NCBI RefSeq assembly: GCF_023016265.1
Contig: NZ_CP095412.1
Span: 806,001-870,000 of the forward strand
Direction: 5' to 3'
Length of the DNA stretch: 64,000 nucleotides
Origin: Blastococcus sp. PRF04-17
GTDB lineage: Bacteria > Actinomycetota > Actinomycetes > Mycobacteriales > Geodermatophilaceae
Shown here: one piece after another, positions 19,915 to 64,000 of the stretch
How the letters are laid out: every line of letters begins with the position of its first letter
Numbering within the stretch: the first letter of the stretch is position 1
Notes under the pieces: model-generated
What the model was told of the DNA's origin: nothing
The model's input: only the letters and a program-made list of their open reading frames with translations
Databases searched by the model: none
Program-made: the position numbers and the translations under genes

Positions 19915-19999
19915 GGCTGGAGAAGTCCGTCCTGTCTCGTCGGTGCGGTGCGGTGGATCGGAGGCCACCGGACGTGTGTGGTGGGTGGTGGTCCGGCCG

Positions 20000-21285: not shown

Positions 21286-21292
21286 GGAGCGA

Positions 21293-21312: not shown

Positions 21313-21339
21313 GACAGCGCAAGAACCCGCTGGAATCTT
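21311..21339 (+). promoter_or_regulatory. Predicted promoter of the sugar ABC transporter operon
   Basis: A perfect -35 TTGACA (21311-21316) is followed after 17 bp by a weak -10 AATCTT (21334-21339). The transporter ATG is about 54 bp after the -10. The -35 overlaps the right end of the LacI operator, a repression geometry. Confidence 0.5.
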
Positions 21340-21392
21340 TCTCGACTGTGTTCCACGCCACGGCGGCGTGCGGCGAGACGAAAGGACCAGAC

Positions 21393-47087: not shown

Positions 47088-47168
47088 GAGGGTCCCTTTC
47101 GATCGGCGGGCGTCCGGGCACGGGCGGACCGGGGCGGGGGCGGCGGGCCCCCGCCCCGGTCGGGACGG

Positions 47169-48461
47169 TCAGTCGGCCGACAGCATCCGGGTCAGCAGGT
47201 CATCGGGGATGAGCACGCTGGGGCCGGGGTAGTCGTCCGGCCGGTTGGGGTCGTAGAGCCCCTCCTCGGCCTGCACGAACGGCTGCGGAACGATGATGTC
47301 GGCCGCCACGTCGTCGCCGGCCAGCAGGCCCATCACCGAGGTGATGGAGACCCGGCTCTGCCAGTTGAGGCCGTTGGTGAAGTAGATCGGGAACTCCCGC
47401 TCGGTGCCCAGGGCCTCCTCCCAAACCTTCGCCATGCCGTTGTTGGCGGTCCAGGTGACGATTGGGGGCGGCGTCACGCCGGCGGAGTTGAAGGCCTCGA
47501 TAACCTGCGGGATCGGGTCGGCGTAGTCGTAGAAGATGCCGCTGTACTCCTGGCCGGAGCTGACCAGCGCCGAGGCCGCCTCGAACGCCCCCGCCAGGGT
47601 CCAGTCGGTGTCCAGCTTCGTCCCGACGGTCAGGTCGGGACCCAGCGCGTCCTCGAAGCACTTGTTCCAGGTGGCCCCCTGCGGGTTGCCGGGGGTGCCG
47701 TTGAGGATCGCGACCTGGCCGGTGAGGCCCAGGTCCTCCTGCGCCACCTCGGCCATCTCCTCGCCGACGGCGCACACGTCGCCGTGGACCTGGCTGGCCA
47801 GCGAGGTCGGCGGGGCGTCGGGCACCGGCCCCACGTAGGTGGAGATGAAGGCGCCCTGCTGCTGGGCGGCCTGGAAGGCCGGCAGCGCGGCGGCACCGAA
47901 GTCGTTGTAGCTGACGATCGCGGTGGCGCCCTGGGCGGCGAGGCTGCGGACGTTGGACTGGAACGTCGCCAGGTCGCCCTGGGCGTCGGTGGAGATGATC
48001 CGGCCGACGTTCGGGTAGGTCAGCGCCTGGAGGATGGCTTCCATCTTCGCGATCCGGCGCCACTGGTTCTGGCCGAACGCCTCGGCGATGCCTACCGTCA
48101 CCTCGCCGTCGCCGATCTCGCAGCTGGTCTCCGACCAGCACTCGAAGGCCTTGTCCAGCTGCTCCGGCGTCAGCTCGATCGTCGCGCGGCGGAAGGCCTC
48201 CTGCACCGTCGGATCGAGGTCGTCGAGCTGCACCTCGTCGGTGAGGAAGGCCCGGCTGACCGTCTCCTGGACGTCGGCGTCGTCGATGGAGTCCAGGTCG
48301 ACGCTGGACTCCGAACCGCTGCCGCCGCCGCCACCGCCGCCGCCGTCGTCCTCGCCGCGGTTGCCGCAGGCGGTGAGGGTGAGGGCCAAGGCCGTCACCG
48401 CGATCAGCGCCGGCCTCCCTCGGCCACGGGTGACGCCGCGGCGGCGCATGAGGTTACCCAT
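47169..48461 (-). CDS. Sugar-type ABC transporter substrate-binding lipoprotein (CUT2)
   Basis: 430 aa. Lipoprotein signal MGNLMRRRGVTRGRGRPALIAVTALALTLTACG with Cys near 32, then a poly-Gly/Ser linker. The mature protein is a RbsB/Peripla_BP_4-like fold after an unusually long about 100-residue N-terminal extension: VTVGIAEAFGQNQWRRIAKMEAILQAL, ARGATAIVSYND-like segment LAAQGATAIVSYNDFGAAALPAF, TGQVAILNGTPGNPQGATWNKCFED, QEYSGIFYDYADPIPQVIEAFNSAG. Ligand cannot be told; CUT2 proteins bind monosaccharides, autoinducers and polyols. Overlaps the permease gene stop by 8 bp. Confidence 0.88.
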   Translation of the reverse strand: MGNLMRRRGVTRGRGRPALIAVTALALTLTACGNRGEDDGGGGGGGGSGSESSVDLDSIDDADVQETVSRAFLTDEVQLDDLDPTVQEAFRRATIELTPEQLDKAFECWSETSCEIGDGEVTVGIAEAFGQNQWRRIAKMEAILQALTYPNVGRIISTDAQGDLATFQSNVRSLAAQGATAIVSYNDFGAAALPAFQAAQQQGAFISTYVGPVPDAPPTSLASQVHGDVCAVGEEMAEVAQEDLGLTGQVAILNGTPGNPQGATWNKCFEDALGPDLTVGTKLDTDWTLAGAFEAASALVSSGQEYSGIFYDYADPIPQVIEAFNSAGVTPPPIVTWTANNGMAKVWEEALGTEREFPIYFTNGLNWQSRVSITSVMGLLAGDDVAADIIVPQPFVQAEEGLYDPNRPDDYPGPSVLIPDDLLTRMLSAD

Positions 48462-49536
48462 CGTTCTGCTCCCGGTTCTCTTGGTTCAGGGGCTGGTCCG
48501 GGTCGGACCGGCCACGGGATGTGCCACCGCGCAGGGCGGAGATCGAGGACCACCTCAACTTCTTGGAGGTGGCGACGAGGGTGAGACCGACACCCAGGAC
48601 GACGCCCTGGAAGGCCAGCGCAACGCCCGACGAGTAGCCCTTGACCCGGAAGATGAAGTCCAGGACCACCAGGAACAGCGCGCCCAGCGCGGTCGCACCC
48701 GGTCGCACCCGGCCACCGGCGAGGGAGGCACCGCCCAGCACCACGGCCACGATCGGGGTGAGCAGGTAGGGGATCCCCAGCGACAGGTCGGGGGTGGCGA
48801 GCAGGCCGGCGAGCAGCACGGCGCCGATCCCGACGATGAGGGTGCCGGTCATCCAGGCCGCCAGCCGCTGCCGGGTGGCCGCCAGGCCGCTGTTCTCCGC
48901 GGCGACCCGCGCCACGCTGCTGGCCGCCACCCGGCGGCCGGTCGTGTGGTAGCGCAGCCAGACCGCGATGATCGCCACCACGACGAGGGCGATGATCAGG
49001 ATGACGCTGATCTGGGCGACCGAGCCGCGAGCGAAGCCCGACAGGTTGGAGGGCACGTTGGACTCGGCCAGCACCGGCCCGCGGTAGATCCGGGTGGCGC
49101 CGGCGATCAGCTGCCCGGTGGCCAGAGTGACCACCAGCGCGTCGAGCCGGGTCACCTCGACCAGCAGCCCGTTGACCAGCCCGATGCCCAGGCAGGCGGC
49201 CAGGCCGAGCAGCAGCGCCGGAAGCAGCTGGCCGTTGTCGCCGGCGGCCTCCTTAAGCACGATGATGCCGACGAGGGTCACCGTCGACGGGATGCTCAGG
49301 TCGATGCCGCCGGTTCCGATGATGAACGCCTGGCCCAGGGCCATCAGGATCATCACCCCGATGGTCGGGGTGAGCGTGGAGAGGCTGGCTCGGCTGAACA
49401 TGTCGACGTCCAGCAGCAGGAGGCCGATGAGGATCAGCGCCACGTTGGCCAGCAGGATGCCCCGGCCGGGCAGCTGACGGGGCCGGCGCGGAACCGACCG
49501 GGTTGCCGGCGCGGGGCTCTCCGCGGTGACCGTCAT
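48454..49536 (-). CDS. CUT2 ABC transporter permease (RbsC-like)
   Basis: 360 aa; ATG chosen for its GGAGGAGG site. About ten helices: LLANVALILIGLLLLDVDMF, ALGQAFIIGTGGIDLSIPSTVTLVGIIVL (permease signature), NGLLVEVTRLDALVVTLATGQLIAG, TPIVAVVLGGASLAGGRVRPGATALGALFLVVLDFIF. First gene of the importer operon, followed by the binding protein and the ATPase-permease fusion; the two different permeases would form a heterodimeric pore. A regulon box lies 93 bp upstream of the start. Confidence 0.9.
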   Translation of the reverse strand: MTVTAESPAPATRSVPRRPRQLPGRGILLANVALILIGLLLLDVDMFSRASLSTLTPTIGVMILMALGQAFIIGTGGIDLSIPSTVTLVGIIVLKEAAGDNGQLLPALLLGLAACLGIGLVNGLLVEVTRLDALVVTLATGQLIAGATRIYRGPVLAESNVPSNLSGFARGSVAQISVILIIALVVVAIIAVWLRYHTTGRRVAASSVARVAAENSGLAATRQRLAAWMTGTLIVGIGAVLLAGLLATPDLSLGIPYLLTPIVAVVLGGASLAGGRVRPGATALGALFLVVLDFIFRVKGYSSGVALAFQGVVLGVGLTLVATSKKLRWSSISALRGGTSRGRSDPDQPLNQENREQNDG

Positions 49537-49628
49537 CGCACCTGCCTCCTCCACCGCGCGGCATGGGTGACTGCTGTCACACCATGCGGAACCACGGGGA
49601 AAGGTAGGAACGGGGCGGCGGCGGGCGC

Positions 49629-49645
49629 CGTGTCAGATTGAGACA
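49629..49645 (-). promoter_or_regulatory. Regulon box upstream of the ABC importer operon
   Basis: Minus strand TGTCTCAATCTGACACG, matching 15 of 17 positions of the box next to the AcoR-like regulator gene. Core symmetry is TGTC-N7-GACA on the plus strand. Distance to the permease ATG is 93 bp, a normal upstream activating position. Confidence 0.65.
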
Positions 49646-49668: not shown

Positions 49669-50531
49669 TCAGCTGCCGAACACGCTGGTGCGGAGCTTGG
49701 CGAGTCGGTCCAGCTCCTGCAGCATCTGCGCCGGCGTCTCGCCGCCGAGGTAGATGTTGACGTGGGCCACGCCGTTGCGTCGGTAGGCCTCCAGCGACGC
49801 CTCGTCCACCGCCGCCGGCGCGGTGCCGACGGCGACCGAGTTAGGGTCCCGCCCGGCCTCGGCGACCATCTCCCGGAACCGCGGGATCGACTCGGTCAGC
49901 AGCGGGTCGGCCAGCGGCGGGGTGGGGTACCAGACGTCGGCCCACTCCGCGGCGTGCCGCATGGTCAGTGGCCCGCTGCCGCCCAGGTAGATCGGTGGGT
50001 GGGGGGCTGGACCGGCTTGGGCCAGCACCAGCTCGGCTGCAGGGAGACGTACTCCCCCTCGAACTCGGCGACGTCGTCGGCCCACATCCGCCGCAGCAGC
50101 TGGACCTGCTCGCGCACCTTGCGGTGCCGGGTGGCGAAGTCCACGCCGTGGGTCTCGAACTCGTCCTTGTTCCAGCCGAAGCCCACGCCGAACACGAAGC
50201 GGCCGCCCGAGAGCCGGTCCACCGAGGCCACCATCTTGGCCGTGTGCACGGTGTCGCGGAGCGCGAGTAGGCAGATGCCCGTGCCGATCTGCAGCGTGGT
50301 CGTCGCCGCGGCCGCAAAGGAACAGCTGATGAACGGATCGTAAGTACGCTTGTAGAAGTCCGGGAGCACACCGCCGCCGTAGGACTCGGGGTAGGCGGTG
50401 GCCCGGGAGACCGGGATGTGCGAGTGCTCCGGGAAGAACATGCTGTCGAACCCTCGCTGTTCGATTTCGGCGGCCAGCGGGCCGGGGTCCATGTCGAGAT
50501 CGGTAGCGAACACGTAGACGCCGACCTTCAT
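49669..50531 (-). CDS. F420-type LLM-class oxidoreductase, one-base frameshift
   Basis: 287 aa when one base is restored. N-terminal frame: MKVGVYVFATDLDMDPGPLA, FFPEHSHIPVSR, LQIGTGICLLALRDTVHTAKMVASVDRLSGGRFVFGVGFGWNKDEFETHGVDF. The frame breaks at the six-G run 50001-50006 (seven expected); the other frame continues PHPPIYLGGSGPLTMRHAAEWADVWYP and ends RLAKLRTSVFGS. This is the luciferase-like family that uses F420 (or FMN) to oxidise or reduce hydrophobic substrates. ATG with GAGGAGG upstream. It is the only gene between two regulon boxes and is likely induced with the cluster. Confidence 0.85.
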
Positions 50532-50620
50532 GGGGTGCCTCCTCGAGTCGTCTGCTCCGCCGGGGGGCACCGCAGGCGCCCCAGTTCGCGCGAACGTAGG
50601 TCCGAGGCGGCGGGGTGGGC

Positions 50621-50637
50621 TGTGTCACTTAGAGACA
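50621..50637 (-). promoter_or_regulatory. Regulon box upstream of the LLM oxidoreductase gene
   Basis: Minus strand TGTCTCTAAGTGACACA, keeping the TGTC/GACA arms at the same N7 spacing and the outer ACA. It is 90 bp upstream of the LLM ATG, nearly the same distance as the importer box from its gene. Confidence 0.6.
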
Positions 50638-50650: not shown

Positions 50651-51439
50651 TCAGGGGCCGGTGTTCCCGCGGGAGAAGCTGCCGTCGATGGTGATGCCGC
50701 CGTCGACCCGCAGGACGGCGCCCGTGACGAAGGAGGCCTGGTCGGAGACGAGGAACGCGACGGCGGCGGCCACCTCGTCGGGGCGGCCAAAGCGTCCCAG
50801 CGGGGTCCGGTCGAGCAGCCGGTCGCGGTCGAGGGCTCCGGTGTCGAACCCCGACAGCATCATGGGGGTCTCGATGTAACCCGGGGCGACCGCGTTGACC
50901 CGGATGCCGCGGCGTCCCCACTCGGCGGCCAGCGTGCGGGTCAGCCCTACCACGCCGGCCTTGGCGGTGCTGTACCCCAGCCGCTCGGGCAGGCCGAAGG
51001 TCGACCCGACCGAGGCCAGGTTGACGATCGAGGCGGCGGCCGAGCGCCGCAGGTAGGGGTAGGCGGCCCGGCTGCAGCGCATGGCACCGCCGAGGTTGAC
51101 CGCGAGCTCCCGCTCCCACTGTCCGGTGTCGAACTCTTCGGCGGGCTGCCGGGAGAGGATGCCGGCGTTGTTGACCAGCGCGTCCAGCCTGCCGTCCCCG
51201 CCGCCGTCTCTCCCGGCCGCGGCGACGGCGGCCGCGACGGACTCGTCGTGGGTGACGTCCATCCGCACCGGGAGGGCTACCGAGGCGTCACCGGACAACC
51301 CGGCGGCGGCCTCCCGCACCAGGGCCTCGTCCACGTCTCCCAGCACGACGCGCCAGCCGTCGTCGACCAGGCGCCGGCTGATGGCCAGGCCGAGGCCCCG
51401 CCCGGCGCCGGTGACCAGGGCCGTGTGGCGGGCGCTCAC
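50651..51439 (-). CDS. Short-chain dehydrogenase/reductase (classical SDR)
   Basis: 262 aa. Seen: nucleotide motif [16 protein letters not shown] (TGxxxGxG), [13 protein letters not shown], catalytic Ser in [10 protein letters not shown], YxxxK in [28 protein letters not shown] and the C-terminal [16 protein letters not shown](P)-dependent alcohol/ketone oxidoreductase, cytosolic. GTG start overlaps the stop of the SDR fragment upstream. Probably last gene of the monooxygenase operon. Confidence 0.9.
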
Positions 51440-51690
51440 GCGATGTACCCGGACGTGCCCGCCCGGCTGATGACCACGCGGGGGACCACCGAGCGCGCCG
51501 AGAGCCCGACGACCGCCTCCACCAGCGCCACCACGTCGTCCACCGGGATCATCCGCTCGGCGGGGATGCAGTCGCGCATCCAGCCCGACATGTCGGTGTC
51601 GACGTAGCCGGGCGCGAGCGCCGTCGCGGTCACCCCGCTGCCCGACTCCTCGGCGTTCGTGGCGTCGACCAGCACGGCGCGCTCAGTCAC
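51436..51690 (-). pseudogene. C-terminal fragment of a second SDR
   Basis: 84 codons: after a short unrelated start ([11 protein letters not shown]) comes [27 protein letters not shown] and [27 protein letters not shown], the last third of an SDR. The cofactor motif and the catalytic Ser-Tyr-Lys are missing, and no room exists for them because the GTG overlaps the phosphotransferase stop. A deletion probably removed the 5' part while keeping operon spacing. If translated it cannot be a working dehydrogenase. Confidence 0.7.
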
Positions 51691-52738
51691 GCCGGCCCAC
51701 CACCTCGAGGCCGGCCTCGAGCAGCACCGGCACCGTCGCCGCGACCCCCTCGTACCCCTCGCCCGCCGTGGCGCCCAGGCGGTGCCGGTAGGCGATGCCC
51801 TCGGCGATCACGGCCAGCTTGTAGAACGCCAGCGCCAGGTGGAAGTGCCAGTGCGGGAGCGCCCGGCCGGCCCGCTCCTCGTACATCGCCCGGAGCTCCT
51901 CCACCGGCGGGAACCGATCGCTGGTCCAGGCGGCCTCGATGCCGAGCACGCCGTCGAGCGCTGGGTGGCGGTAGGCGCACATGAGCGCGACGTCGGCCAC
52001 CGGGTCGCCCAGCGTCGACAGCTCCCAGTCGACCAGGGCGCGCACGGCACCCGGGTCGTCGTCGGCCAGGATGGTGTTGTCCACCCGGAAGTCGCCGTGC
52101 AGGACGCCCGAGCGGTCCTGGTCGACCAGCCGGGCGCCGAGGTCGGCGGCGAGCCGCTCCGCGCGCGGGTCGGTGGCGCCCATCTCGGTCCACTGCCGCG
52201 ACCAGCGGCGCAGCTGCCGCGCGGCGTACCCGCCGGGGCGGCCGAAGTCGCCGAGACCGACGGCGGCCGGATCGACCTTGTGTAGCCGCACCAGCACCTC
52301 GACTAGCGCCGTGGCGCAGGCGGCGACGTCCGCGTCGGTCCACCCCGCCAGGTCGGCCCGGCTGCGCACCGTGCGCCCGGCGACGAAGTCGACGATCGCG
52401 GCGGGCGCGCCGATCACCGCTCCGGTCGCGTCGCAGCCGACCGCCCGCGGCACCGGCACGCCGGTCGGCCCCAGGGCCGCCACCACCCGGTACTCGCGCA
52501 CCATGTCGTGGGCGGACTCGATGACGCCGCCCAGCGGGGGCCGGCGCAGCGCCCACGACCGGACGTCGTCGCGCAGCCGGTAGGTCAGGTTGGACCGGCC
52601 GCCGGCCAGCAGCGTCGCCGTCAGCGGCCCGCGCGGGCTCTCCCCGCAGTCGACCAGGAACGCCCGCAGCCCGGCCAGCTGCTGCTCGGTGAGATCCGTG
52701 CCGGCCGGGTCGCGCGTCGCGGCGATGGGATCGCTCAC
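51683..52738 (-). CDS. APH-family kinase, ACAD10/11- and LvaA-like
   Basis: 351 aa phosphotransferase with protein-kinase-like fold. Seen: SNLTYRLRDDVRSWALRRPPLGGVIESAHDMVREYRVVAAL, catalytic loop GVLHGDFRVDNTIL, and the metal site ALVDWELSTLGDPVADVALMCAYRHP. The W-E-L-S-T-L-G-D/H-P-x-A-D block is that of the kinase part of ACAD10/11 and of LvaA, which phosphorylate 4-hydroxyacyl-CoAs. The gene overlaps the acyl-CoA dehydrogenase stop (GTGA), the partner in that chemistry. Aminoglycoside resistance is unlikely. Confidence 0.85.
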   Translation of the reverse strand: MSDPIAATRDPAGTDLTEQQLAGLRAFLVDCGESPRGPLTATLLAGGRSNLTYRLRDDVRSWALRRPPLGGVIESAHDMVREYRVVAALGPTGVPVPRAVGCDATGAVIGAPAAIVDFVAGRTVRSRADLAGWTDADVAACATALVEVLVRLHKVDPAAVGLGDFGRPGGYAARQLRRWSRQWTEMGATDPRAERLAADLGARLVDQDRSGVLHGDFRVDNTILADDDPGAVRALVDWELSTLGDPVADVALMCAYRHPALDGVLGIEAAWTSDRFPPVEELRAMYEERAGRALPHWHFHLALAFYKLAVIAEGIAYRHRLGATAGEGYEGVAATVPVLLEAGLEVVGRRD

Positions 52739-53943
52739 GGCGAGCGCTCCCGCCCGCGCGCGGCCGCCGAGACGGCGCGGCGGGCGATCGCCCAGCGGTG
52801 CACCTCCGATGCGCCGTCGTAGATGCGGAACGGGCGCACCTCGCGGGTCAGCCGCGCCAGCGGCAGGTCCTCGGAGACGCCCGGGCCACCGCACATCTGC
52901 ACGGCCCGGTCCACGATCCGGCCGATCGCCTCGGCGGCGAAGGTCTTGGCGATCGAGGTGGCGGTCGACGCGCGGCGCCCCTGGTCCAGCTCCCAGCAGG
53001 CCTGCACCAGCAGGGCGCGGGTGGCGGCGATGTCGATCTCGTTGTCGGCGATCAACTGCTGGATGATGCCCAGGTCGGCCAGCCGCGCGCCGAACGCCTC
53101 GCGCTCGGCCACGTGCCGTAGTGCCACCTCGTGCCCGCGGCGGGCGGCCCCCAGCCAGCGCATCACGTGGGTCATCCGGGCCGGTCCGAGCCGCACCTGC
53201 GCGTTGGCGAAGCCGGCGTCCACCTGGCCCAGCACGCCGTCGTCGGGCACGAACAGGTCGGTGAGGACCACCTCGCAGTGGCCGCCCACCATGGAGCGGT
53301 CCAGCGTCCGGATGTGCCGGCCTACCTCGATGCCGGGCGCGTCGGCCTGGGTCAGGAACATCGTCGCCCCGAAGGCGTCGCCCGGCCGGCCGCCGGTACG
53401 GGCCATGACGATGAAGAACCCGGCACCGTCGGCGCCGGTGATGAACCACTTGCGGCCGCTGAGCCGCCAGCCCCCGGCGACCTTCACCGCCTCGGTGCGC
53501 AGCGCCGCCGGATCGGAGCCGGCCCCCGGCGCGGGCTCGGTCATGGCGAACGCCGAGCGCTGCTCCCCGGCCACGAGCGGCCGCAGGTAGCGCTCCTTCT
53601 GCTCGGGGGTGGCCACGTGCGCCAGCAGGTGGACGTTGCCCTCGTCGGGGGCGGCGATGTTGAGTGCCAGCGGGCCGAACAGCGACTCCCCCGCCGCCTC
53701 GAACACCGGCGCCCGGTCGACCATGCCGAGGCCCAACCCGCCGAACTCGACCGGGGCGTGCGGGCTGAGCAGGCCGCGGTCGCGGGCCATGACCTGCAGC
53801 CGGCGGCGCAGGTCGTCACCGCCGGCGGCCTCGATGTCACCGCCGGCGGCGTCCTCGATCGGCAGCACCTCCTCCCGCACGAACTCCGCGGTCCGCGCGG
53901 TGAGCTGCTCCACCTCGGCCCGCGGCGCCGGGTCCACGGTCAC
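52735..53943 (-). CDS. Acyl-CoA dehydrogenase, ACAD10/11-like
   Basis: 402 aa. GTG with GGAGGAGG upstream. Seen: GLLSPHAPVEFGGLGLGMVDRAPVFEAAGESLFGPLALN, FAMTEPAPGAGSDPAALRT (FAD region), GRKWFITGADGAGFFIVMART, FGARLADLGIIQQLIADNEIDI, MCGGPGVSEDLPLARLTREVRPFRIYDGASEVHRWAIARR. The final block resembles ACAD11-type enzymes. Paired with the kinase it would act on phosphorylated hydroxyacyl-CoA, eliminating phosphate to an enoyl-CoA; otherwise it is a standard FAD dehydrogenase. Confidence 0.9.
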   Translation of the reverse strand: MTVDPAPRAEVEQLTARTAEFVREEVLPIEDAAGGDIEAAGGDDLRRRLQVMARDRGLLSPHAPVEFGGLGLGMVDRAPVFEAAGESLFGPLALNIAAPDEGNVHLLAHVATPEQKERYLRPLVAGEQRSAFAMTEPAPGAGSDPAALRTEAVKVAGGWRLSGRKWFITGADGAGFFIVMARTGGRPGDAFGATMFLTQADAPGIEVGRHIRTLDRSMVGGHCEVVLTDLFVPDDGVLGQVDAGFANAQVRLGPARMTHVMRWLGAARRGHEVALRHVAEREAFGARLADLGIIQQLIADNEIDIAATRALLVQACWELDQGRRASTATSIAKTFAAEAIGRIVDRAVQMCGGPGVSEDLPLARLTREVRPFRIYDGASEVHRWAIARRAVSAAARGRERSP

Positions 53944-53992
53944 CGGACACCCTCCTCCGGACAGAAGTGGCCTGGCGCCACGGGCCGCGCGG

Positions 53993-55630
53993 TCACGCCG
54001 GGACGGAGCTGCGCCCGAGCACGAAGTTCTCCCGGTAGTCGGTGTCCACCTCGTCCTGCAGCCGGTCCAGGTAGACCCCGCTGCCAGCCATGAAAAACAT
54101 GTTGGTGACCGGCTTGCCCGGGATGTTCGAGCCGTTGATCCACGAGTTGACCTCGGCGAACAGGGTCTGGTTCGCGATCTCGTCGCACTCGGCGATCCAG
54201 GCGTTTTGCGCCTCGAGCGTCGGCTCGATCGACCCGAGGTCTTTGTTCCGCACGTGCTCGATCACCCCCGCGACCCAGTTCACCTGCGCCTCGTGCAGCG
54301 GGGGCTGGTTGGTGAACGGCCCCATCGGCCCGTAGATCATGAACAGGTTCGGGAACCCGTGGCTGATCAGGCCGAGGTAGGTGCGGGGACGGTCGTGCCA
54401 GGCCTGGCGCAGCGTCACCCCATTGCGGCCCTCGTGGTGGATCTTGAGCTGGTTGCCCGAGACGGCGTCGAAACCGGTGGCCAGCACGATCACGTCGAGC
54501 TCGATGTGCCGGCCCGACTCGGTGCGGATGCCGGTCTCGGTAATCTCCGCGATCGGGTCGCTCTTGACGTCGACCAGCTCGACGTTGTCCCGGTTGTAGG
54601 TCTCGTAGTAGTTGTCGCAGCACAGCGGCCTCTTCGCGTAGAGGTCCTTGGGCGTCAGCAGCTCGGCCACCTTCGGGTCCTTGACCGTCTCGCGGATCTT
54701 CTTCGCGATGACGTCGGTCGCCGCCTTGTTGGCCACCCGGCTGGTCGCCACGTCGTTGAACGCGGCGAACATGTACTGGAAGCCGCCGCCGTCCTCGTAC
54801 TGCTTCTCGAAGGCGGCCTCGCGCTCCTCGGGCGAGACGCTCTCGGCGGAGATGTCGCTCTCCTTGAACCCGAACGCCGTCGTCGAGTACAGCACGTCGC
54901 GCCAGTAGCCCTCGTAGTCATCTTCGATGGCCTGCAGCAGCCCCGGAGAGATCGGCCGGTGCTTCGACGGGACCACCCACTGCGGGGTGCGCTGGAAGAC
55001 GGTGAGGGAGTGCACCTGGTGGGCGATCTCGGCGATCACCTGGATGCCGCTGGAACCGGTGCCGATGACTCCGACCCGCTTGCTGGACAGGTCGACGTCC
55101 TCGTGCGGCCAGCGCGCGGTGTGGTAGATCTCGCCGCGGAACCGCTCCTGGCCGGGGAAGTGCGGAACCTTGGTGGCCGACAGCAGCCCGACCGCCTCGA
55201 CGAGGAACTGCGCGGCGTAGGTGACGGCGTTGGCGGTGACCAGCCAGCGCTGGTTCTCCTCGTCCCAAGTGGCGCTCTCGACCTGAGTGTTGAACAGGAT
55301 GCTGCGGCGCAGGTCGTACTTGTCGGCCACGTGCCGGAGGTAGGCCCGGATCTCCTGCTTCTCCGGGTAGCGCTCGCTCCACTTCCACTCGTGGAAGAGC
55401 TCCTTGTCGAAGGAGTAGCAGTACGCGTTCACCTCGGTGTCGGAGCGGGCCCCCGGATAGGTGTTCCAGTACCACGTGCCGCCCACGTCGCCGGCGTTGT
55501 CGAACGCCTGGACCGTGAGACCGAGTTCGTTCCGCAGCTTGTGGATGCTGTAGAGCCCGGCGAAGCCCGACCCGACCACGATCGCGTCCACCACTGTGAG
55601 TTCGCCGCGCGTCTGCGCCTCGTCGCTCAT
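53993..55630 (-). CDS. Baeyer-Villiger monooxygenase (FAD, NADPH)
   Basis: 545 aa, the size of cyclohexanone/acetone-type BVMOs. Seen: first Rossmann motif GSGFAG at residues 20-25, DVGGTWYWNTYPGARSD, BVMO fingerprint FRGEIYHTARWP near residue 165-176, second Rossmann GVIGTGSSGIQVI, TVFQRTPQWVVP, VLATGFDAVSG, GFPNLFMIYGPMGPF. It inserts an oxygen next to a ketone, giving an ester or lactone. ATG with AGGAGGGA upstream. First gene of the operon with the dehydrogenase, kinase and SDR; divergent from the AcoR-like regulator. Confidence 0.93.
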   Translation of the reverse strand: MSDEAQTRGELTVVDAIVVGSGFAGLYSIHKLRNELGLTVQAFDNAGDVGGTWYWNTYPGARSDTEVNAYCYSFDKELFHEWKWSERYPEKQEIRAYLRHVADKYDLRRSILFNTQVESATWDEENQRWLVTANAVTYAAQFLVEAVGLLSATKVPHFPGQERFRGEIYHTARWPHEDVDLSSKRVGVIGTGSSGIQVIAEIAHQVHSLTVFQRTPQWVVPSKHRPISPGLLQAIEDDYEGYWRDVLYSTTAFGFKESDISAESVSPEEREAAFEKQYEDGGGFQYMFAAFNDVATSRVANKAATDVIAKKIRETVKDPKVAELLTPKDLYAKRPLCCDNYYETYNRDNVELVDVKSDPIAEITETGIRTESGRHIELDVIVLATGFDAVSGNQLKIHHEGRNGVTLRQAWHDRPRTYLGLISHGFPNLFMIYGPMGPFTNQPPLHEAQVNWVAGVIEHVRNKDLGSIEPTLEAQNAWIAECDEIANQTLFAEVNSWINGSNIPGKPVTNMFFMAGSGVYLDRLQDEVDTDYRENFVLGRSSVPA

Positions 55631-55875: not shown

Positions 55876-55892
55876 TGTGTCAGATTGCGACA
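55876..55892 (-). promoter_or_regulatory. Regulon box in the divergent promoter
   Basis: Minus strand TGTCGCAATCTGACACA, 16 of 17 identical to the box before the transketolase genes. It lies 107 bp upstream of the regulator ATG and could give autoregulation or upstream activation of the monooxygenase operon. Confidence 0.7.
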
Positions 55893-55998: not shown

Positions 55999-57798
55999 AT
56001 GGCGACGCTGCGACAGGTCGACGCCGCGCGCGAGCACTTGCTGGCCAGCGGGGTCATTCCGGAGCACCTGGCGAAGTCGGTCCGCCCGCAGGTGCTCCAG
56101 TCCTGGAAGCGCTCGCTGCTCAGCGGAGCCGGGGTGGCCAATCCGTCCCTCGAGTTCCGCGGGGAGCACCACGCTCGCGCCGCGCTCCGCCTGGCCGCCA
56201 ACCCCGTCCTGTCCCGGCTGGCCGAGGAGCTGTCCGGGCTCGACGCGGGGGTGCTGCTGTCCGACCACGAAGCGGTCGTGGTAGAGCGATGGGTGTCCGA
56301 CGCCGGGATCCTGTCGCAGATGGACCGGATCAACTCCGACGCCGGCTTCTGCGTCAGCGAGGAGGTCATCGGCACCAACGGCGTGGGCACGGTGATCGAG
56401 GTCGACCGCGCCATCCAGATCACCGGGCCGGAGCACCTGGCCGACACCCTGCGGCCGTTCACCTGCGTGGGCGTTCCGGTGCACCACCCGATCACCCGCC
56501 GGCTCGAGGGCGTCATCACGATGAACTGCCGGGCGACGTCGCACAACCCGCTCCTGACGCCGCTGATGACCAGCACCGCCCAGGAGGTGGAGTCCCGGCT
56601 GCTGGCGCAGGCCAGCACCGACGAGCGGCTGCTGCTCGACGCCTATCTCGTCGCGATCGGCGCCCGCCGCGCCCCGATCGCCGCGATCGGCCAGGACATC
56701 TTCATGGCCGGGCCCCGGGTGACCGACCTGCTCGAGGGCGTCGACCGGGCCGTGCTGTGGGAGTACGTCCGGGGTGTGGCGCTGGGCTCGCGGGGCCGCG
56801 CCGAGGAGCTCGGGCTGGCCACCGACCGCTTCCGGATCACCCGGTGCACGCCGGTCGAGCGGGACGGCACGGTCATCGGCGCGCTGGTGGAGTTCGACCT
56901 CTACCGCACGGTCCCCGACGACTTCACCGCCGCGGCGACGCCACGACGGCCGGTCACGCTCCCCGGCAAGAGCCCCGCGCTGATGCAGGCCACCGCGCAC
57001 GCCACCCGGCTGGCCTCCAAGGGCGTGCCGATCCTGATCGAGGGCGAGGCCGGGGTGGGCAAGTTCGCGCTCGCCCGGGCGGTGCTGGAGTCGGCGCAGG
57101 TGCCGGCCGACAAGGTGGCCGTCGTCGATGCCGCGGCCGGGTCGGCCGAGGGCGCCGGCCGGTTCCTCACCGAGCTGCGCCGGGAGATCGACGGCCGCCC
57201 GGAGGCCCTCGTCGTCCGCCACGTGGAGACCCTCCCCTCCGAGGCGGCCGCCGCCACCGCGTCGCTGCTCGAGGAGCTGGACGAGCAGCCCGCGCCGCCG
57301 CGGATCATCGCGACGCTGACCCCCACCGATGCCACCACGCCGGGGCTGCGGCGCCTGGTGGACACCGTCGGCGTCGGACGGGTGACCCTGCGGCCGCTGC
57401 GCGACCGGTCGGAGGACATCGCCCCGACGGCGCTGGCCCTGCTGGAGAAGCACCGCGGGCCGCGGCAGCTGCACTTCTCCTCCGCGGCGCTGCGCTACCT
57501 GATGCGAGCGCCGTGGCCGGGGAACCTGCGCCAGCTGGACGCCACCATCCGGGGCCTGATCTCCACCTGCCCGGGCCCGGAGATCCGGCCGGAGCACCTG
57601 CCGCTGGACCTGCAGGGCTCCAGTCGCAAGCGCAACCTGTCGGCCATCGAGGAACTCGAGCTCTCCGCGATCCTCGGCGCCCTGAAGCAGCACAACGGCA
57701 ACAAGGTCGCCGCGGCGCAGGCCATCGGCATCTCCCGGTCGACGCTGTACCGCAAGCTGCAGGCCTACCGGCTGGACCCGGACAAGCAGTACTTCTGA
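55999..57798 (+). CDS. AcoR-like GAF/AAA+/Fis-HTH transcriptional regulator lacking GAFTGA
   Basis: 599 aa; ATG with GGGAGG 8 bp upstream. N-terminal part ASGVIPEHLAKSVRPQVLQSWKRSLLSGAG, typical of AcoR-like activators, then a GAF domain (LLSDHEAVVVERW, ISSEVIGTNGVG-like EEVIGTNGVGTVIEV, HHPITRRLEGVITMNCRA). The AAA+ domain keeps Walker A GEAGVGKFALARAV and WPGNLRQLDATIRGL but has no GAFTGA loop and a degraded Walker B (EALVVRHVETLP). C-terminal Fis-type HTH: NGNKVAAAQAIGISRSTLYRKLQAYRL. Actinobacteria generally lack sigma-54, so it probably works with another sigma factor by direct binding to the TGTC boxes. Followed by a strong terminator. Confidence 0.88.
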   Translation: MATLRQVDAAREHLLASGVIPEHLAKSVRPQVLQSWKRSLLSGAGVANPSLEFRGEHHARAALRLAANPVLSRLAEELSGLDAGVLLSDHEAVVVERWVSDAGILSQMDRINSDAGFCVSEEVIGTNGVGTVIEVDRAIQITGPEHLADTLRPFTCVGVPVHHPITRRLEGVITMNCRATSHNPLLTPLMTSTAQEVESRLLAQASTDERLLLDAYLVAIGARRAPIAAIGQDIFMAGPRVTDLLEGVDRAVLWEYVRGVALGSRGRAEELGLATDRFRITRCTPVERDGTVIGALVEFDLYRTVPDDFTAAATPRRPVTLPGKSPALMQATAHATRLASKGVPILIEGEAGVGKFALARAVLESAQVPADKVAVVDAAAGSAEGAGRFLTELRREIDGRPEALVVRHVETLPSEAAAATASLLEELDEQPAPPRIIATLTPTDATTPGLRRLVDTVGVGRVTLRPLRDRSEDIAPTALALLEKHRGPRQLHFSSAALRYLMRAPWPGNLRQLDATIRGLISTCPGPEIRPEHLPLDLQGSSRKRNLSAIEELELSAILGALKQHNGNKVAAAQAIGISRSTLYRKLQAYRLDPDKQYF

Positions 57799-57947: not shown

Positions 57948-57964
57948 TGTCGCAATCTGGCACA
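57948..57964 (+). promoter_or_regulatory. Regulon box before the split transketolase operon
   Basis: TGTCGCAATCTGGCACA, 16 of 17 identical to the 55876 box. It ends only 35 bp before the transketolase ATG, closer than the other boxes, so either the transcript is nearly leaderless or the box acts differently here. Confidence 0.65.
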
Positions 57965-57999: not shown

Positions 58000-58845
58000 A
58001 TGTCCACGACCTCTGCCGCGCCCGCGGCGGTCGACGTCCTGGCGCTGCGGGACAAGGCCCACGCGCTGCGCCGGTCGATGATGGAGATGACCCGCGGCAA
58101 GGGCGAGGGCTACATCGCCCAGGGGCTGGGGATCGCCGACGTCCTGGCGGCGCTGTACTTCTCCGAGCTGCGGCACGACCCGGCGCGTCCCGACTGGCCC
58201 GACCGCGACCGGTTCCTGCTCTCCACCGGCCACTACTCGATCGCCATGTACGCGGTGCTCGCCGAGGCCGGCTACCTCGACCCCGCCGAGCTGCCCACCT
58301 ACGGGCTCAACGGCTCGCGGCTGCCGATGAGCACCTTCGACACCACCCCCGGCGTGGAGATCGTCGGCGGCTCGCTGGGGCACGGGCTGGGCCAGGGCGT
58401 GGGCATGGCGCTGGGGCTACGCCTCGACGGGTCGCCGGCCCGGGTGTTCGTCGAGCTCTCCGACGGCGAGCTGGACGAGGGGTCGACGTGGGAGTCGGCG
58501 ATGGGCGGGGCCACGTTCGGCTGCGACAACCTGGTCGCGCTGGTCGACTGCAACGGCATCCAGGCCGACGGCCCGGTGACGGTCGCGATCGAGCCGGTCG
58601 CGGACAAGTTCACCGCGTTCGGCTGGACCACGCAGGAGATCGACGGCAACGACATGCAGGCCCTGGTCGACGCGCTGCAGGCGTGCCGGGCCAGGGACGG
58701 CCGGCCGAAGGCGATCGTGCTGCGCACCACCCCCGGCTGCGGCGTGCCCAGCCTGGTCGACCGGCCGCGGGCGCACTTCGTGCGGGTGACCGACGCCGAG
58801 TGGGCGGACCTGATGGACGAGCTGGAGGCCTCCCGTGGCCGGTGA
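58000..58845 (+). CDS. Transketolase, N-terminal (thiamine-diphosphate-binding) subunit
   Basis: 281 aa. Seen: LRRSMMEMTRGKGEGYIAQGLGIADVLAALYF, DRFLLSTGHYSIAMYAVLAEAG, GGSLGHGLGQGVGMALGLRL, the diphosphate/Mg motif SDGELDEGSTWESAMGGA (GDGE...N type) and ALVDCNGIQADGP. Only the first half of a transketolase; the second half is the next gene. Transfers two-carbon ketol units; related split enzymes include apulose-4-phosphate transketolase, so the substrate is not certain. Confidence 0.88.
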   Translation: MSTTSAAPAAVDVLALRDKAHALRRSMMEMTRGKGEGYIAQGLGIADVLAALYFSELRHDPARPDWPDRDRFLLSTGHYSIAMYAVLAEAGYLDPAELPTYGLNGSRLPMSTFDTTPGVEIVGGSLGHGLGQGVGMALGLRLDGSPARVFVELSDGELDEGSTWESAMGGATFGCDNLVALVDCNGIQADGPVTVAIEPVADKFTAFGWTTQEIDGNDMQALVDALQACRARDGRPKAIVLRTTPGCGVPSLVDRPRAHFVRVTDAEWADLMDELEASRGR

Positions 58846-59851
58846 CATGGTTGTCGGAGACACGGTGAACCACGACACGGCCGTCTTCGGGCAGACCCGG
58901 GGCATGGGCGAGCTCGTCGAGGTGCCCGACCGGGTGACCGAGCTGGCCCCGTTCGGTACCGAGCTCGCGGCGCTGGGGGCCGAGCGGCCGGAGATCGTCG
59001 CGCTCACCGCCGACATGGCCCGCTACAGCGACGTCCTGCCCTTCCGCGACGCCCACCCCGAGCGGTTCTTCAACGTCGGCATGGCCGAGCAGAACCTCAT
59101 CCTGACCGCGGCCGGGCTGGCCAAGACCGGCAAGATCGCCTACTGCACCACGTACTCGGTGTTCGTCACCCGGCGCGCCTACGACTTCGTCGCCATCGCC
59201 TGCGCGCACTCGATGGCCGACGTGAAGATCTTCGCGGGCATGCCCGGCCTGCTCAACGGCTACGGCGCCACGCACCAGGCCACCGAGGACCTGAACATGG
59301 TGCGGGGCATCGCCGACCTGACGGTGATCGACCCGTGCGACGCCACCGAGCTGCGGCAGGTGGTCCGCGCGGTCGCCGACATCCCCGGCACCGTCTACGT
59401 GCGGCTGCTGCGCGGCAACGTGCCGGTCGAGCTCGGCCCCGACTACCGGTTCGTGCCGGGCCAGGCGGCGCTGCTGCGCGAGGGCAGCGGGGTGGGGGTG
59501 ATCTCGACCGGCTACATGACCGCCCGCGCGCTCGAGGCCGCCCGGCGGGCGCAGCGCGACGGGGTGCGGGCGGGGGTGCTGCACGTGCCCACGATCAAGC
59601 CGTTCGACACCGAGGCGGTGCTCGACTTCGCCGGCCGCTTCGACCGCCTGGTGGTCGCCGAGAACCACAAGACCACGGGGGGCCTGGCCACCCTGGTGAC
59701 CGAGGCGATGTTCGACGCCGGGCTGCTGCGGCCGGTGCTGCGGGTCGGCCTGGCCGACGAGTTCTTCGAGTGCGGCTCGCAGGAGTACCTGGAGGCCAAG
59801 TACGGCCTGGACCTGCCGCGCATGGTGCGCGCGCTGGTCGACGGCACCTGA
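58835..59851 (+). CDS. Transketolase, C-terminal (pyrimidine-binding) subunit
   Basis: 338 aa; GTG overlaps the previous gene by 11 bp. Seen: ALTADMARYSDVLPFRDAHPERFFNVGMAEQNLILTAAGLAKTGKIAYCTTYSVFVTRRAYDFV (the catalytic-Glu region), GYGATHQATEDLNMVRGI, and the C-terminal domain VISTGYMTARALEAARRAQ, VPTIKPFDTEAV, AENHKTTGGLATLVTEAM. Forms the active heteromer with the upstream subunit. Confidence 0.9.
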   Translation: MAGDMVVGDTVNHDTAVFGQTRGMGELVEVPDRVTELAPFGTELAALGAERPEIVALTADMARYSDVLPFRDAHPERFFNVGMAEQNLILTAAGLAKTGKIAYCTTYSVFVTRRAYDFVAIACAHSMADVKIFAGMPGLLNGYGATHQATEDLNMVRGIADLTVIDPCDATELRQVVRAVADIPGTVYVRLLRGNVPVELGPDYRFVPGQAALLREGSGVGVISTGYMTARALEAARRAQRDGVRAGVLHVPTIKPFDTEAVLDFAGRFDRLVVAENHKTTGGLATLVTEAMFDAGLLRPVLRVGLADEFFECGSQEYLEAKYGLDLPRMVRALVDGT

Positions 59852-59866: not shown

Positions 59867-60949
59867 ATGACCCGGCTGCGGATGTTCGCCGCGCCGCTGC
59901 GGTACATCCAGGGGCCCGGCGCGCTCGACGCGCTGCCCGGCGTGCTGGCGCCCTACGGGGAGCACCCGCTGGTGGTCACCGACCCCTACGTCCGCGAGCT
60001 GCTCGGCGCGCGGGTGGCCGGCGTCCTCTCGGAGGCCGGCCTGGCCCCCGCCGTCCTGGAGCTGCCCGGTGAGATCACCGCGGCGGCGGCCGACGAGCTC
60101 GCCGCCTCGGCCGGTGCGGCCGGCGCCGGCATCGTCGTCGGCATCGGCGGCGGCAAGGCGCTCGACGCGGCGAAGGCGGTCTCACTGCGGCTCGGGCTGC
60201 CGGTGGTGACGGTGCCGTCGGTGGCCTCCAACGACAGCCCGACCAGCGCCGCAATCGCCATGTACGACGGGGCGCACCGGCTGGTCGCGGTTGACCGGCT
60301 GCCGGCCAACCCGCACGCCGTCGTGGTCGACACCGCACTGGTCGCCGCCGCCCCGGTGGCCTTCCTGCGCTCGGGCATCGGTGACGCGGTGGCCAAGAAG
60401 TTCGAGGCCGCTGCCTGCCGCGCCGGCACGGGCGTGACCGCGCTGGGCACCCGGCCCCTGGCGATTGGCTCGGTGCTCGCCGACGCCTGCTACGACGTGC
60501 TGCAGGCCTCCGCGGTCGCCGGGCTGGCGGCCTGCGAGCGCGGCGCTGTCGACGACGCGCTGGAGGCCGTCGTCGAGGCGGTGGTGCTGCTCAGCGGGCT
60601 GGGCTTCGAGAACGGCGGGCTGTCGCTGGCGCACTCGCTGACCCGCGGGCTGATGCGAGCGCGGGGAGCGCGCGAGGCCATGCACGGCGAGCAGGTGGCG
60701 TGGGCGACGCTGGTCCAGCGCGTGGCCGAGGGTGCGCCGGCCGCCGAGGTGGCCGAGCTCCGCGGCTTCCTGGTCGGCGTCGGGCTGCCGACCGGGCTGG
60801 CGCAGCTGGGCATGCCCGCGCCGACCGCCGAGGAGGTGCGCGACATCGCCCGGATCACGATGACCGCCCCGCACCTGGCGAACCTGACCGTGCCGGCCAC
60901 CGAGGAGCTGGTGGCCGGGGCGATCCTCGCCGTCGAGGCGCTCGGGTAG
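59867..60949 (+). CDS. GldA-like iron-containing polyol dehydrogenase
   Basis: 360 aa, glycerol dehydrogenase family. Seen: GPGALDALPGVLAPYGEHPLVVTDPYV, the nucleotide loop GIGGGKALDAAKAVSLRLGLPVVTVPSVASNDSPTSA, metal ligands in RSGIGDAVAKKFEA, GGLSLAHSLTRGLM and AMHGEQVAWATL. Oxidises a vicinal diol or reduces a hydroxyketone with NAD. Located 15 bp after the transketolase pair in one operon; hydroxyketone chemistry (dihydroxyacetone-like) would suit that pair. Converges with the next operon, 10 bp apart. Confidence 0.9.
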   Translation: MTRLRMFAAPLRYIQGPGALDALPGVLAPYGEHPLVVTDPYVRELLGARVAGVLSEAGLAPAVLELPGEITAAAADELAASAGAAGAGIVVGIGGGKALDAAKAVSLRLGLPVVTVPSVASNDSPTSAAIAMYDGAHRLVAVDRLPANPHAVVVDTALVAAAPVAFLRSGIGDAVAKKFEAAACRAGTGVTALGTRPLAIGSVLADACYDVLQASAVAGLAACERGAVDDALEAVVEAVVLLSGLGFENGGLSLAHSLTRGLMRARGAREAMHGEQVAWATLVQRVAEGAPAAEVAELRGFLVGVGLPTGLAQLGMPAPTAEEVRDIARITMTAPHLANLTVPATEELVAGAILAVEALG

Positions 60950-63044: not shown

Positions 63045-63439
63045 GTTGATCCTTCTCGGGCGAAGCTCGGGACGAGCAGGGAGGTGTCCCCGGGTCGGGC
63101 GGGATCGCCGTCCCCGGAATCGGGCAGGAAGACGACCCGAGCGCGGTCCCCGGGGGCCAGCGCGTCGTCGCGCATGCGACCCATCACCAGCGGCCCCTCG
63201 TCGAGCTCGACGAGCACGAGGCCCAGCGGCGCAGTTTCCGCCGGCTGGGCCGAGGCGTGCAGGCGGGTCACCGCGACGCACAGGCCGCCGCCGCCGGCGG
63301 CCGAAGGGGTGGCCTCGCGGCTGCCGCAGTTCGGGCAGCGCTCGCGGGGCAGGTACCACCGCGCGCCGCACCGGTCGCAGCGCGTCACGACCAGCCGCGG
63401 CTCGCCCCGGGTCCAGTCCACCGGCGTCGCGGCGCTCAT
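63041..63439 (-). CDS. DUF35 OB-fold protein with rubredoxin-like zinc ribbon
   Basis: 132 aa. N-terminal zinc ribbon CDRCGARWYLPRERCPNCG (two C-x2-C pairs), then an OB-fold (GLVLVELDEGPLVMGRMR, LAPGDRARVVFLPD). Such proteins are adaptor subunits of thiolases and HMG-CoA synthases, helping CoA-intermediate channelling. Stop and start overlap its neighbours on both sides, and the thiolase is directly upstream, as expected. Confidence 0.9.
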   Translation of the reverse strand: MSAATPVDWTRGEPRLVVTRCDRCGARWYLPRERCPNCGSREATPSAAGGGGLCVAVTRLHASAQPAETAPLGLVLVELDEGPLVMGRMRDDALAPGDRARVVFLPDSGDGDPARPGDTSLLVPSFAREGST

Positions 63440-64000
63440 GGGCCACCGCCGCGGCGAAGCACGACGCCGACGTGCGCCGAGAGCACGCCGCCGTCGGCGT
63501 GCACGTAACCGGCGTGGCAGGAGGCCACCTGGCTGGCGCCGCGCTCGTGCCGCAGCTGCGCGGCGACCTCGGCGACGTGCGCCATGCCGCCGCCGACGCC
63601 GCAGTGGCCGTAGGAGAGCAGGCCGCCGTGGGTGTTCATCGGGTAGCGGCCGTCGATCTCGAAGGCGCCGGCGGAGGCGTAGGCGCCGGCGCGACCCTCG
63701 GGCACCAGCCCAAGCTCCTCCAGCAGCAGCGCCACGGTGATCGAAAAGCTGTCGTAGATGCCGTAGACGGTGATGTCGTCCCAGCCGAGGCCGGCCTCGG
63801 CTAGTGCGCCGCGGGCGGCCCGCGCGGCGCCGGTGTCGGCCGGGTCGAGCGCGGACAGGTGCTGGTGGCGGTGCGCCTGCCCGGTACCGGCGATGGTCAG
63901 CGAGCGGTCGGAGGTCGGCGCGGCGGAGACGACGAACGCCGCACCCCCGTCGGAGACCGGGCAGCAGTCGAGCAGCCGGAGCGGCTCGGCGACCGGGCGC
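63436..64000 (-). CDS. Thiolase-like acetyltransferase (SCP-x type), cut by the window edge
   Basis: C-terminal about 187 residues; the 5' part is outside. Seen: CCPVSDGGAAFVVSAA, WDDITVYGIYDSFSITVALLLEELG, MNTHGGLLSYGHCGVGGGMAHVAEVAAQLRHERGASQ, with the GxCGxGGG region typical of SCP-x-type thiolases that pair with DUF35 proteins. It cleaves a 3-ketoacyl-CoA (or runs in reverse). First gene of the operon thiolase, DUF35, acyl-CoA synthetase. Confidence 0.87.
   Translation of the reverse strand, partial: RPVAEPLRLLDCCPVSDGGAAFVVSAAPTSDRSLTIAGTGQAHRHQHLSALDPADTGAARAARGALAEAGLGWDDITVYGIYDSFSITVALLLEELGLVPEGRAGAYASAGAFEIDGRYPMNTHGGLLSYGHCGVGGGMAHVAEVAAQLRHERGASQVASCHAGYVHADGGVLSAHVGVVLRRGGGP

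Follow-up and report, generated by a model that had tools for sequence, protein, structure and literature searches.

A possible ketone-to-hydroxyacyl-CoA pathway with an apparently recruited LvaA/LvaC-like cassette in Blastococcus sp. PRF04-17

The described proteins closest to those treated here are mammalian ACAD10 and ACAD11 and the bacterial pair LvaA/LvaC. The structural account of ACAD11 gives R626, H634 and R637 as gripping the 4-phosphate, with D753 in place of the usual glutamate and R631 general to acyl-CoA dehydrogenases (ACADs), and they name D220, N225, R176 and R86 in its kinase domain (PMC12440821). The catalytic Asp replacing Glu marks LvaC, ACAD10 and ACAD11 (PMC11342911, PMC12440821), LvaC is 56-62% identical to ACAD10/11, and ACAD10-dependent phosphorylation in cells extends to 4-hydroxy- but not to 5- or 6-hydroxyhexanoate (PMC11342911). 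Here we describe a stretch of 64,000 nucleotides from Blastococcus sp. PRF04-17 (contig NZ_CP095412.1, positions 806,001 to 870,000; hereafter the window), in which genes for an ACAD and a kinase of this kind follow a gene for a Baeyer-Villiger monooxygenase (BVMO). On balance we lean towards a co-regulated ketone-to-hydroxyacyl-CoA pathway, into whose BVMO operon an ACAD-kinase cassette of wide distribution would have been recruited.

The monooxygenase, dehydrogenase and kinase genes

The three genes lie head to tail on the minus strand, as follows.

53993..55630, minus strand: type I Baeyer-Villiger monooxygenase of the cyclohexanone monooxygenase (CHMO) family, in its own 100/100 clade (Pfam, PDB match, motifs, tree)
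52735..53943, minus strand: acyl-CoA dehydrogenase with the ACAD10/11/LvaC-specific R251, H259, R262 and D376 and the general R256 (domains, alignment)
51683..52738, minus strand: APH-type small-molecule kinase, LvaA / ACAD11-kinase-like, with D216, N221, R81 and R174 (Pfam, PDB matches, alignment)

The BVMO and ACAD genes are separated by 49 bases, and the ACAD end (CCG TGA) and the kinase start (GTG AGC) overlap in GTGA. Reading frames, Pfam and PDB matches agree on these genes and their overlap, just as a preliminary description of the window had given them.

The BVMO is FMO-like in Pfam, and its best solved match in a PDB search is the cyclohexanone monooxygenase TmCHMO (7v8o, E 3.4e-180). 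Two Rossmann motifs together with FxGxxxHxxxWP are the hallmark of type I BVMOs; the protein has both GxGxxG motifs (GSGFAG and GTGSSG) and FRGEIYHTARWP, that is, the motif set of the CHMO-family type I enzymes. Its family is consistent with the earlier proposal that it makes esters or lactones, and we would expect it to turn ketones into such products. BVMO loci were drawn from one scan of named genome contigs (six loci), from searches of 61, 397 and 396 genomes, and from plasmids. In a tree that took in no solved enzymes, the window BVMO forms one 100/100 clade of nine loci with L021, L022, L023, L025, L137, L109, L110 and L126 (L109 and L110 share one genome), and this clade is sister, again with 100/100, to one holding the BVMO of the Polaromonas JS666 plasmid. 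The closest match in 15 genomes of the same genus reaches E 1.0e-143 and 46% identity, and the phylum sample of 396 genomes held no match at E <= 1e-165 besides the BVMO itself.

The ACAD carries the N, middle and C domains of its family, and its PDB matches are 4hr3 followed by mouse ACAD11. It can be seen from the alignment that R251, R256, H259, R262 and D376 coincide with R626, R631, H634, R637 and D753 of ACAD11. The two proteins are 33.8% identical over 379 residues, which falls short of the subgroup-level identity of LvaC to ACAD10/11, and we file the window ACAD as one that would work like LvaC, ACAD10 and ACAD11 but falls outside their narrow subgroup. The genome also encodes a canonical ACAD11-type ACAD at ~3.351 Mb (L143:2684-3931, minus strand), 36% identical to the window ACAD and matching ACAD11 with E 2.5e-132, as against E 2.4e-50 for the window protein; therefore the window ACAD is a second, divergent type. 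No LvaA-like kinase gene was noticed adjoining the canonical copy in the 8 kb read.

Taking all five residues together as a signature, we compared 86 relatives of the ACAD in two rounds. Round one comprised 46 relatives, 42-80% identical, from class genomes, plasmids and metagenome-assembled genomes (MAGs). The full signature was present in 44, including all 37 whose loci had a detectable kinase gene and seven of the nine without; the other two (L094 and L095, one clade in the tree) carry F, S or N, and E instead. As round one held few distant matches, round two added 40 more places with up to ~4 kb on each side. All 15 with a kinase gene have the signature, and the 25 without comprise 12 with the signature, 12 of an F...E type and one reading RRHRW (L178), whose match ends before the Asp. 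Over both rounds, the signature thus accompanies a kinase gene in the fetched stretch in 52 of 52 cases, and where no kinase was found it occurs in 19 of 34, with the E type making up 14 of 34; overall it is kept in 71 of 86. All 14 E-type ACADs, in which Glu replaces the Asp and both the His and its Arg are gone, lie in stretches without a kinase gene. The conventional ACADs met in the round-one loci never carry the signature (0/9). That the residues of the pair might be kept throughout the family was rejected, as Glu is present and the His absent in 14 of the 86 relatives. The E-type subgroup consists of L094, L095, L145-L155 and L175 and is 50-54% identical to the window ACAD; does it mark a change to ordinary ACAD chemistry?

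The kinase belongs to PF01636 (APH), with PDB matches to 3dxp, 9o56 and the ACAD11 kinase domain, to which it is 30.3% identical over the 201 residues compared. Its D216, N221 and R174 answer to the catalytic D220 and N225 and the CoA-binding R176. An offset of one places D220 and R176 on the PDB chain, and under it N225 falls one place off; the Asn in question is the conserved one of HGDFxxDN. The published account also has a CoA-binding R86 next to the alphaC Glu; R81-E82 matches an Arg-Glu pair, on whose Arg the number 86 does not fall under that same offset. D216, N221, R174 and R81-E82 are retained in 38 of 39 kinase sequences (the window copy included), the remaining one having a gap. 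A role as an aminoglycoside resistance kinase was ruled out, the NCBIfam APH(3') score being 22 against a cut-off of 205 and ACAD11 being among the closest solved relatives. A second strong kinase match in the genome (G000:C1:233081, L141) was found to have no signature-bearing ACAD beside it. We conclude that the likeness to LvaA/LvaC and ACAD10/11 claimed for the pair holds up under these residue tests, and LvaA/LvaC-like chemistry is a well-supported prediction for it.

A widespread cassette within a rare, presumably catabolic island

Both the pair and the BVMO were followed into other genomes. ACAD matches at E <= 1e-75 occur in 87 of 394 class genomes (114 places listed). Forty ACAD loci, hand-picked and mostly closer matches, were fetched with up to ~9 kb on each side. 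Of these, 29 have the kinase gene immediately after the ACAD gene on the same strand and three have it elsewhere on that strand; in eight it was not found. No CHMO-type BVMO was found near the ACAD in these stretches (L060 and L066 have weak FMO-like matches of 25% and 32%), and the 40 stretches of round two gave no BVMO match either. Plasmid copies of the ACAD occur in Georgenia (77%), Rhodococcus (71%) and Thermus thermophilus HB8 (50%), near SDR, enoyl-CoA hydratase, ligase or similar genes; the Thermus neighbours are of beta-oxidation type. On the Rhodococcus plasmid pRZP2 (L128, 4462-18270), an ACAD-kinase-SDR cassette sits amid carboxyl transferase, biotin carboxylase, AtuA-like and beta-oxidation genes, a cluster that possibly serves a terpenoid-type pathway. 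A Variovorax 'hypothetical protein' after an ACAD looks by eye like another ACAD-like protein and not a kinase.

In Georgenia and others an SDR gene follows the ACAD and kinase genes, and a remnant at 51436-51690 in the window is 71% identical to the C-terminal part of the Georgenia SDR. This resemblance to a third cassette gene suggests the arrival of a three-gene ACAD-kinase-SDR cassette in the BVMO operon, followed by shortening of its SDR gene. A Nocardioides MAG (L022) has the triad in identical order, with the pair intact; a second actinobacterial MAG (L023) has the same three genes close by, though not as one operon. The window ACAD groups with those of L022 and Georgenia in a 100/99 clade, and that of L023 belongs to another, so that BVMO and cassette appear to have come together on at least two occasions. 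A merely chance neighbourhood is unlikely given the recurrence in L022 and L023 and the common operator-like sites described below. A conserved BVMO-ACAD-kinase unit was nevertheless rejected, the pair standing beside or near the BVMO in three of the nine clade loci (window, L022, L023); the sister CHMO clade, looked at in ten loci (L111-L120), gave one ACAD match (L113, with conventional residues) and no kinase match. Thus, of the operon first described, the head-to-tail arrangement stands here, but the pair is a widespread separate cassette and not the core partner of the BVMO.

The commoner partners include a split transketolase, GldA-like and SSADH-like (succinate semialdehyde-type) dehydrogenases, a sugar-type ABC importer and an AcoR-like regulator, all of which the preliminary description had missed; to these are added acyl-CoA ligases, a thiolase and a lactonase-like gene of the MBL fold. 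In the window, the neighbours of the three genes are the following.

44496..49554, minus strand: sugar-type ABC importer, whole (gene families)
48454-49554, minus strand: importer permease
47169-48461, minus strand: importer binding protein
44496-47087, minus strand: importer fused ATPase-permease
49669..50570, minus strand: LLM-class (F420-type) oxidoreductase, with a frame change inside a C run near 50000
50651..51439, minus strand: SDR dehydrogenase, intact (family searches; relatives of 58-61% adjoin the BVMO in L023, L025 and L137)
51436..51690, minus strand: shortened SDR gene, the 84-codon remnant discussed above
55999..57798, plus strand: AcoR/DhaR-like GAF-AAA-Fis regulator without a GAFTGA motif (start placed at ATG 55999)
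58000..59851, plus strand: split transketolase, N half 58000-58845 and C half 58835-59851 (family and PDB matches)
59867..60949, plus strand: GldA-like iron-type polyol dehydrogenase (family searches)
60960..63044, minus strand: NDP-forming acyl-CoA ligase (family searches)
63041..63436, minus strand: ChsH2-type zinc ribbon / OB-fold protein (family searches)
63436..64000, minus strand: thiolase-like gene, continuing beyond the window end at least to 64407

The acyl-CoA synthetase and thiolase said to lie nearby are present as the NDP-forming ligase and the thiolase-like gene, with the OB-fold gene between them and an AMP-forming acyl-CoA ligase located outside the window, and their linkage to the BVMO recurs in other genomes. 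The MBL-fold gene belongs to the same island, ~5 kb beyond the window end, and the whole island spans ~25 kb, from 44.5 kb in the window to ~69.7 kb (counted beyond its end). The L024 relative of the LLM gene reads through at the place of the frame shift near 50000, which may reflect either sequencing error or decay.

Island neighbours were compared by tblastn. Common to the Blastococcus genome, genome G399 and a Cnuibacter plasmid are the BVMO, both transketolase halves, the GldA-like, SSADH-like and Zn-dehydrogenases, the NDP-forming ligase and the thiolase, and further the MBL-fold gene, importer parts, an SDR and the GAF/AcoR-type regulator, with identities of 32-79% (the weakest being the Cnuibacter regulator, 32%). 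In all three lineages the island has the MBL-fold gene (58-60%), which the Cnuibacter annotation assigns to the lactonase family. Nocardioides sp. URHA0032 and Cnuibacter physcomitrellae both have the BVMO, transketolase and GldA genes of the island, and in neither was an ACAD-kinase pair seen. Genome G546 (two short contigs) shares the BVMO, transketolase, GldA, SSADH, Zn-dehydrogenase, ligases and thiolase, and L021 and L022 share the BVMO, transketolase, GldA and two regulators (18-22 kb read); the transketolase was not seen in the 19 kb read of L023 or the 13 kb read of L025. The island is rare, and the transketolase C half was found at E <= 1e-115 in two of 397 order genomes and at E <= 1e-100 in four of 345 class genomes, the Blastococcus genome included in each count. 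The presumed catabolic regulon has probably moved horizontally.

The transketolase-GldA-SDR part also occurs, with no BVMO match in the stretches read, in G128, G322, Variovorax and a marine Paracoccaceae (alphaproteobacterial) plasmid. On this plasmid (L133) the transketolase is flanked by an SMP-30 lactonase, a thiolase and an NDP-forming ligase, and an LvaA-like kinase and a full-signature ACAD (IRLGPARLTHCMRWL, LVDGADEVH) lie ~11-13 kb before it. The L133 stretch 9478-22125 has the split transketolase-GldA-SDR module with two FGGY-type kinases (by annotation), a sugar-like counterpart of the island without a BVMO.

The regulator gene is accompanied by operator-like inverted repeats at four places in the window.

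49630..49645, minus strand: operator-like inverted repeat TGTCTCAATCTGACAC, upstream of the permease gene
50622..50637, minus strand: operator-like inverted repeat, upstream of the LLM gene
55877..55892, minus strand: operator-like inverted repeat, in the gap between the BVMO and regulator genes
57948..57963, plus strand: operator-like inverted repeat, upstream of the transketolase gene

A search allowing up to three mismatches found exactly these four sites in the window, all intergenic, where 0.24 were expected and none of 100 shuffles gave four or more. Two further sites lie beyond the window end (~68759 and ~68788), between the Zn-dehydrogenase and MBL-fold genes if both of these start at internal ATGs; a matrix built from the four window sites scores them at 20.3 and 17.2, against a top of 17.0 in 20 shuffles. 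These two and the transketolase site had not been seen before the search. When the best score per locus was compared with the top of 20 shuffles, none of six comparison loci exceeded it (L133, L134, L057, L068, L125, L128). The repeats are near-identical and precede four transcription units in the window, which suggests one regulon under common putative operators.

The predicted route and its competitors

From the gene families, the active-site residues, the linkage and the common operator-like sites we infer co-regulation, a substrate and every reaction of the following route. The starting compound would be a cyclic alcohol or ketone, perhaps hydroxylated, that is imported and brought to the ketone level by dehydrogenases (the SDR, the Zn-dependent alcohol dehydrogenase and perhaps the LLM protein); oxygen insertion by the CHMO-type BVMO would then yield a lactone or ester. 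Ring opening would fall to the MBL-fold lactonase-like protein, and the ligases would make the hydroxyacyl-CoA. If the acid has a C4 hydroxyl, either from the start or after one round of beta-oxidation, the APH-type kinase would phosphorylate it, and the atypical ACAD would remove the phosphate through an internal FAD redox cycle to leave a 2-enoyl-CoA for beta-oxidation, with the thiolase ending the route. A ketol or aldehyde fragment might be taken by the split transketolase and the GldA-like and SSADH-like enzymes. Lactone opening to a hydroxyacid, already part of the preliminary description, has a possible gene in the MBL-fold protein, and the reaction itself is a prediction from its family.

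Given the 4-hydroxy specificity of ACAD10, neither plain cyclopentanone nor plain cyclohexanone would be a direct starting compound. The 5-hydroxyacyl-CoA formerly suggested as a substrate finds no support in this analogy, since ACAD10 took 4-hydroxy- but neither 5- nor 6-hydroxyhexanoate (PMC11342911). Either a two-carbon shortening or a differently substituted ketone would be needed, unless the divergent pair differs in specificity. One simple way would be a single turn of beta-oxidation from a 6-hydroxyacyl-CoA to a 4-hydroxyacyl-CoA, which would offer a simple reason for the pair, especially if the alcohol is secondary.

Several observations weigh against the co-regulated ketone pathway. 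Ring ketones of five or six members, if plain, would yield 5- or 6-hydroxy acids through a CHMO-type enzyme, and ACAD10 showed no activity on those; both the ACAD and the kinase are distant from ACAD11, so their substrate may differ. The pair was not found in six of the nine BVMO-clade loci (contig ends limit L025, L109 and L110), and therefore the pathway may run without it; in L023 an SDR gene on the opposite strand separates pair and BVMO. In the window, the SDR partner and the LLM gene appear damaged. As to the residues, 19 relatives retain the signature with no kinase gene in the stretch, and the E-type rows resemble one subgroup rather than 14 independent losses. The operator evidence is also open to criticism, as three of the four window sites were spotted by eye before the search, so that the shuffle test overstates their significance. 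The bare core TGTC-N7-GACA also matches the window at two other places, 6406 and, within the SDR gene, 50842. Genome-wide there are 17 copies of TGTC-N7-GACAC-NNC, of which three coincide with proposed sites (reversed control, 1). The matrix beats the top shuffle in only four of ten other island loci (L021, L022, L136 and L110, but not L023, L137, L109, L126, L138 or L139).

It could instead be that the cassette serves a general salvage of 4-hydroxy acids (hydroxy fatty acids, terpenoid chains) and landed by chance in the BVMO operon, with no dedicated ketone role. Its wide spread without a BVMO in the 40 + 40 ACAD loci fits this, as do its surroundings in Rhodococcus and Thermus, the SDR remnant with its hint of a three-gene arrival, and locus L021, where the BVMO is followed by an SDR gene and the pair is absent. 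The pair does, however, stand directly behind the BVMO under the same operator-like site, intact in two genomes (the window and L022), and it lies near the BVMO again in L023 with a different ACAD lineage; we consider chance salvage improbable, if to be taken seriously. The BVMO might equally split an acyclic alpha-hydroxyketone (ketol) to acid and aldehyde, as part of an AcoR-like-controlled ketol regulon in which no lactone is formed. A DhaR/AcoR-like regulator, a GldA-like dehydrogenase and a transketolase all suit ketols, and a sugar-type importer suits a polar substrate, but the lactonase-family gene in the island of three lineages (58-60%) speaks for a lactone, and the BVMO belongs to the CHMO family, whose members act well on rings. 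We hold ketol cleavage to be rather unlikely.

A further possibility is that the pair handles an acyl-CoA other than a 4-hydroxy one (for example 5-hydroxy or branched terpenoid) by the same phosphate-elimination chemistry. The ACAD shares only 34% identity with ACAD11 and 36% with the canonical copy of the genome, so specificity may have shifted; the catalytic and substrate-phosphate residues are nevertheless unchanged, and the ACAD10 study reports the phospho-intermediate from 4-hydroxy acids only (PMC11342911). We regard such a shift as unlikely.

Returning to the ketone pathway, we speculate that the transketolase, GldA and SSADH genes point additionally to a polyol or ketol fragment. In a more specific scheme, an imported hydroxylated ring ketone (e.g. 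dihydroxycyclohexanone) would be converted by the BVMO to a lactone that the MBL-fold protein opens to a 4,5,6-trihydroxyhexanoate-type acid; GldA and the split transketolase would shift a two-carbon unit to a sugar phosphate, leaving succinate semialdehyde for the SSADH-like enzyme, with the kinase and ACAD as a second exit for the 4-hydroxyacyl-CoA skeleton in some genomes. If true, this would explain at once why genes for a lactonase, SSADH, GldA, a split transketolase and a pair of LvaA/LvaC type are repeatedly found together, but as a complete scheme it is a long shot.

Comparison with known systems

The earlier remark that the route was not recognised as described still holds, in that no description of a BVMO combined with an LvaA/LvaC-type pair and a split transketolase was met in the open full-text PMC literature; this is weak evidence of absence, as subscription papers lie largely outside it. 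The parts are of known kinds. If correct, the pathway would join Baeyer-Villiger oxidation with the phosphorylation of 4-hydroxyacyl-CoA and with the two-carbon transfer of a split transketolase, three enzymologies that were not met together in this literature. In a sizeable bacterial ACAD group, most examined members (71/86) keep the ACAD10/11-specific residues, though the one in the window shares only 34% identity with ACAD11. The bacterial pairs could serve as simple two-protein models of the mammalian chemistry and as possible enzymes for lactones and hydroxy acids. The E-type subgroup without a kinase gene offers a natural control.

The split transketolase is alike in its two-gene form to one with a solved C-terminal half (6yaj), and the comparison system is the transketolase pathway reported for sulfoquinovose (PMC11659671); the window adds dehydrogenases and an importer. 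We know of no association of a split transketolase with a BVMO. The Polaromonas JS666 plasmid locus (L127: hydrolase, BVMO, SDR, ADH), which we take to be tied to cyclohexanone/cyclohexanol-type degradation, has a sister-clade BVMO, dehydrogenases, a hydrolase and a GAF-type regulator, as in the window; in contrast to the window, the 17 features listed for it include no kinase, ACAD, transketolase, GldA or sugar-type importer.

LvaA and LvaC (lva operon, Pseudomonas putida, Rand 2017) are like the window pair in being encoded by separate adjacent kinase and ACAD genes, with the same catalytic and phosphate-binding residues and with ligase and beta-oxidation-type genes nearby (PMC11342911, PMC12440821). 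The window differs in its more distant ACAD (34% to ACAD11) and in its BVMO/lactonase-like feeder set. The lva operon has a small LvaB gene beside LvaA, whereas at the window locus (the only one looked at) there is no LvaB-type small gene, the GTGA overlap leading into the kinase gene and this in turn into the SDR remnant. With ACAD10 and ACAD11 the pair shares a kinase joined to an atypical ACAD with the residues D, R, H and R, but in two proteins instead of one and in a bacterial catabolic context. At L023 a HAD-family hydrolase gene (L023:4726-5451, plus strand) lies near the pair and recalls the HAD domain of ACAD10, so that the HAD, kinase and ACAD parts of ACAD10 are found there as separate neighbours.

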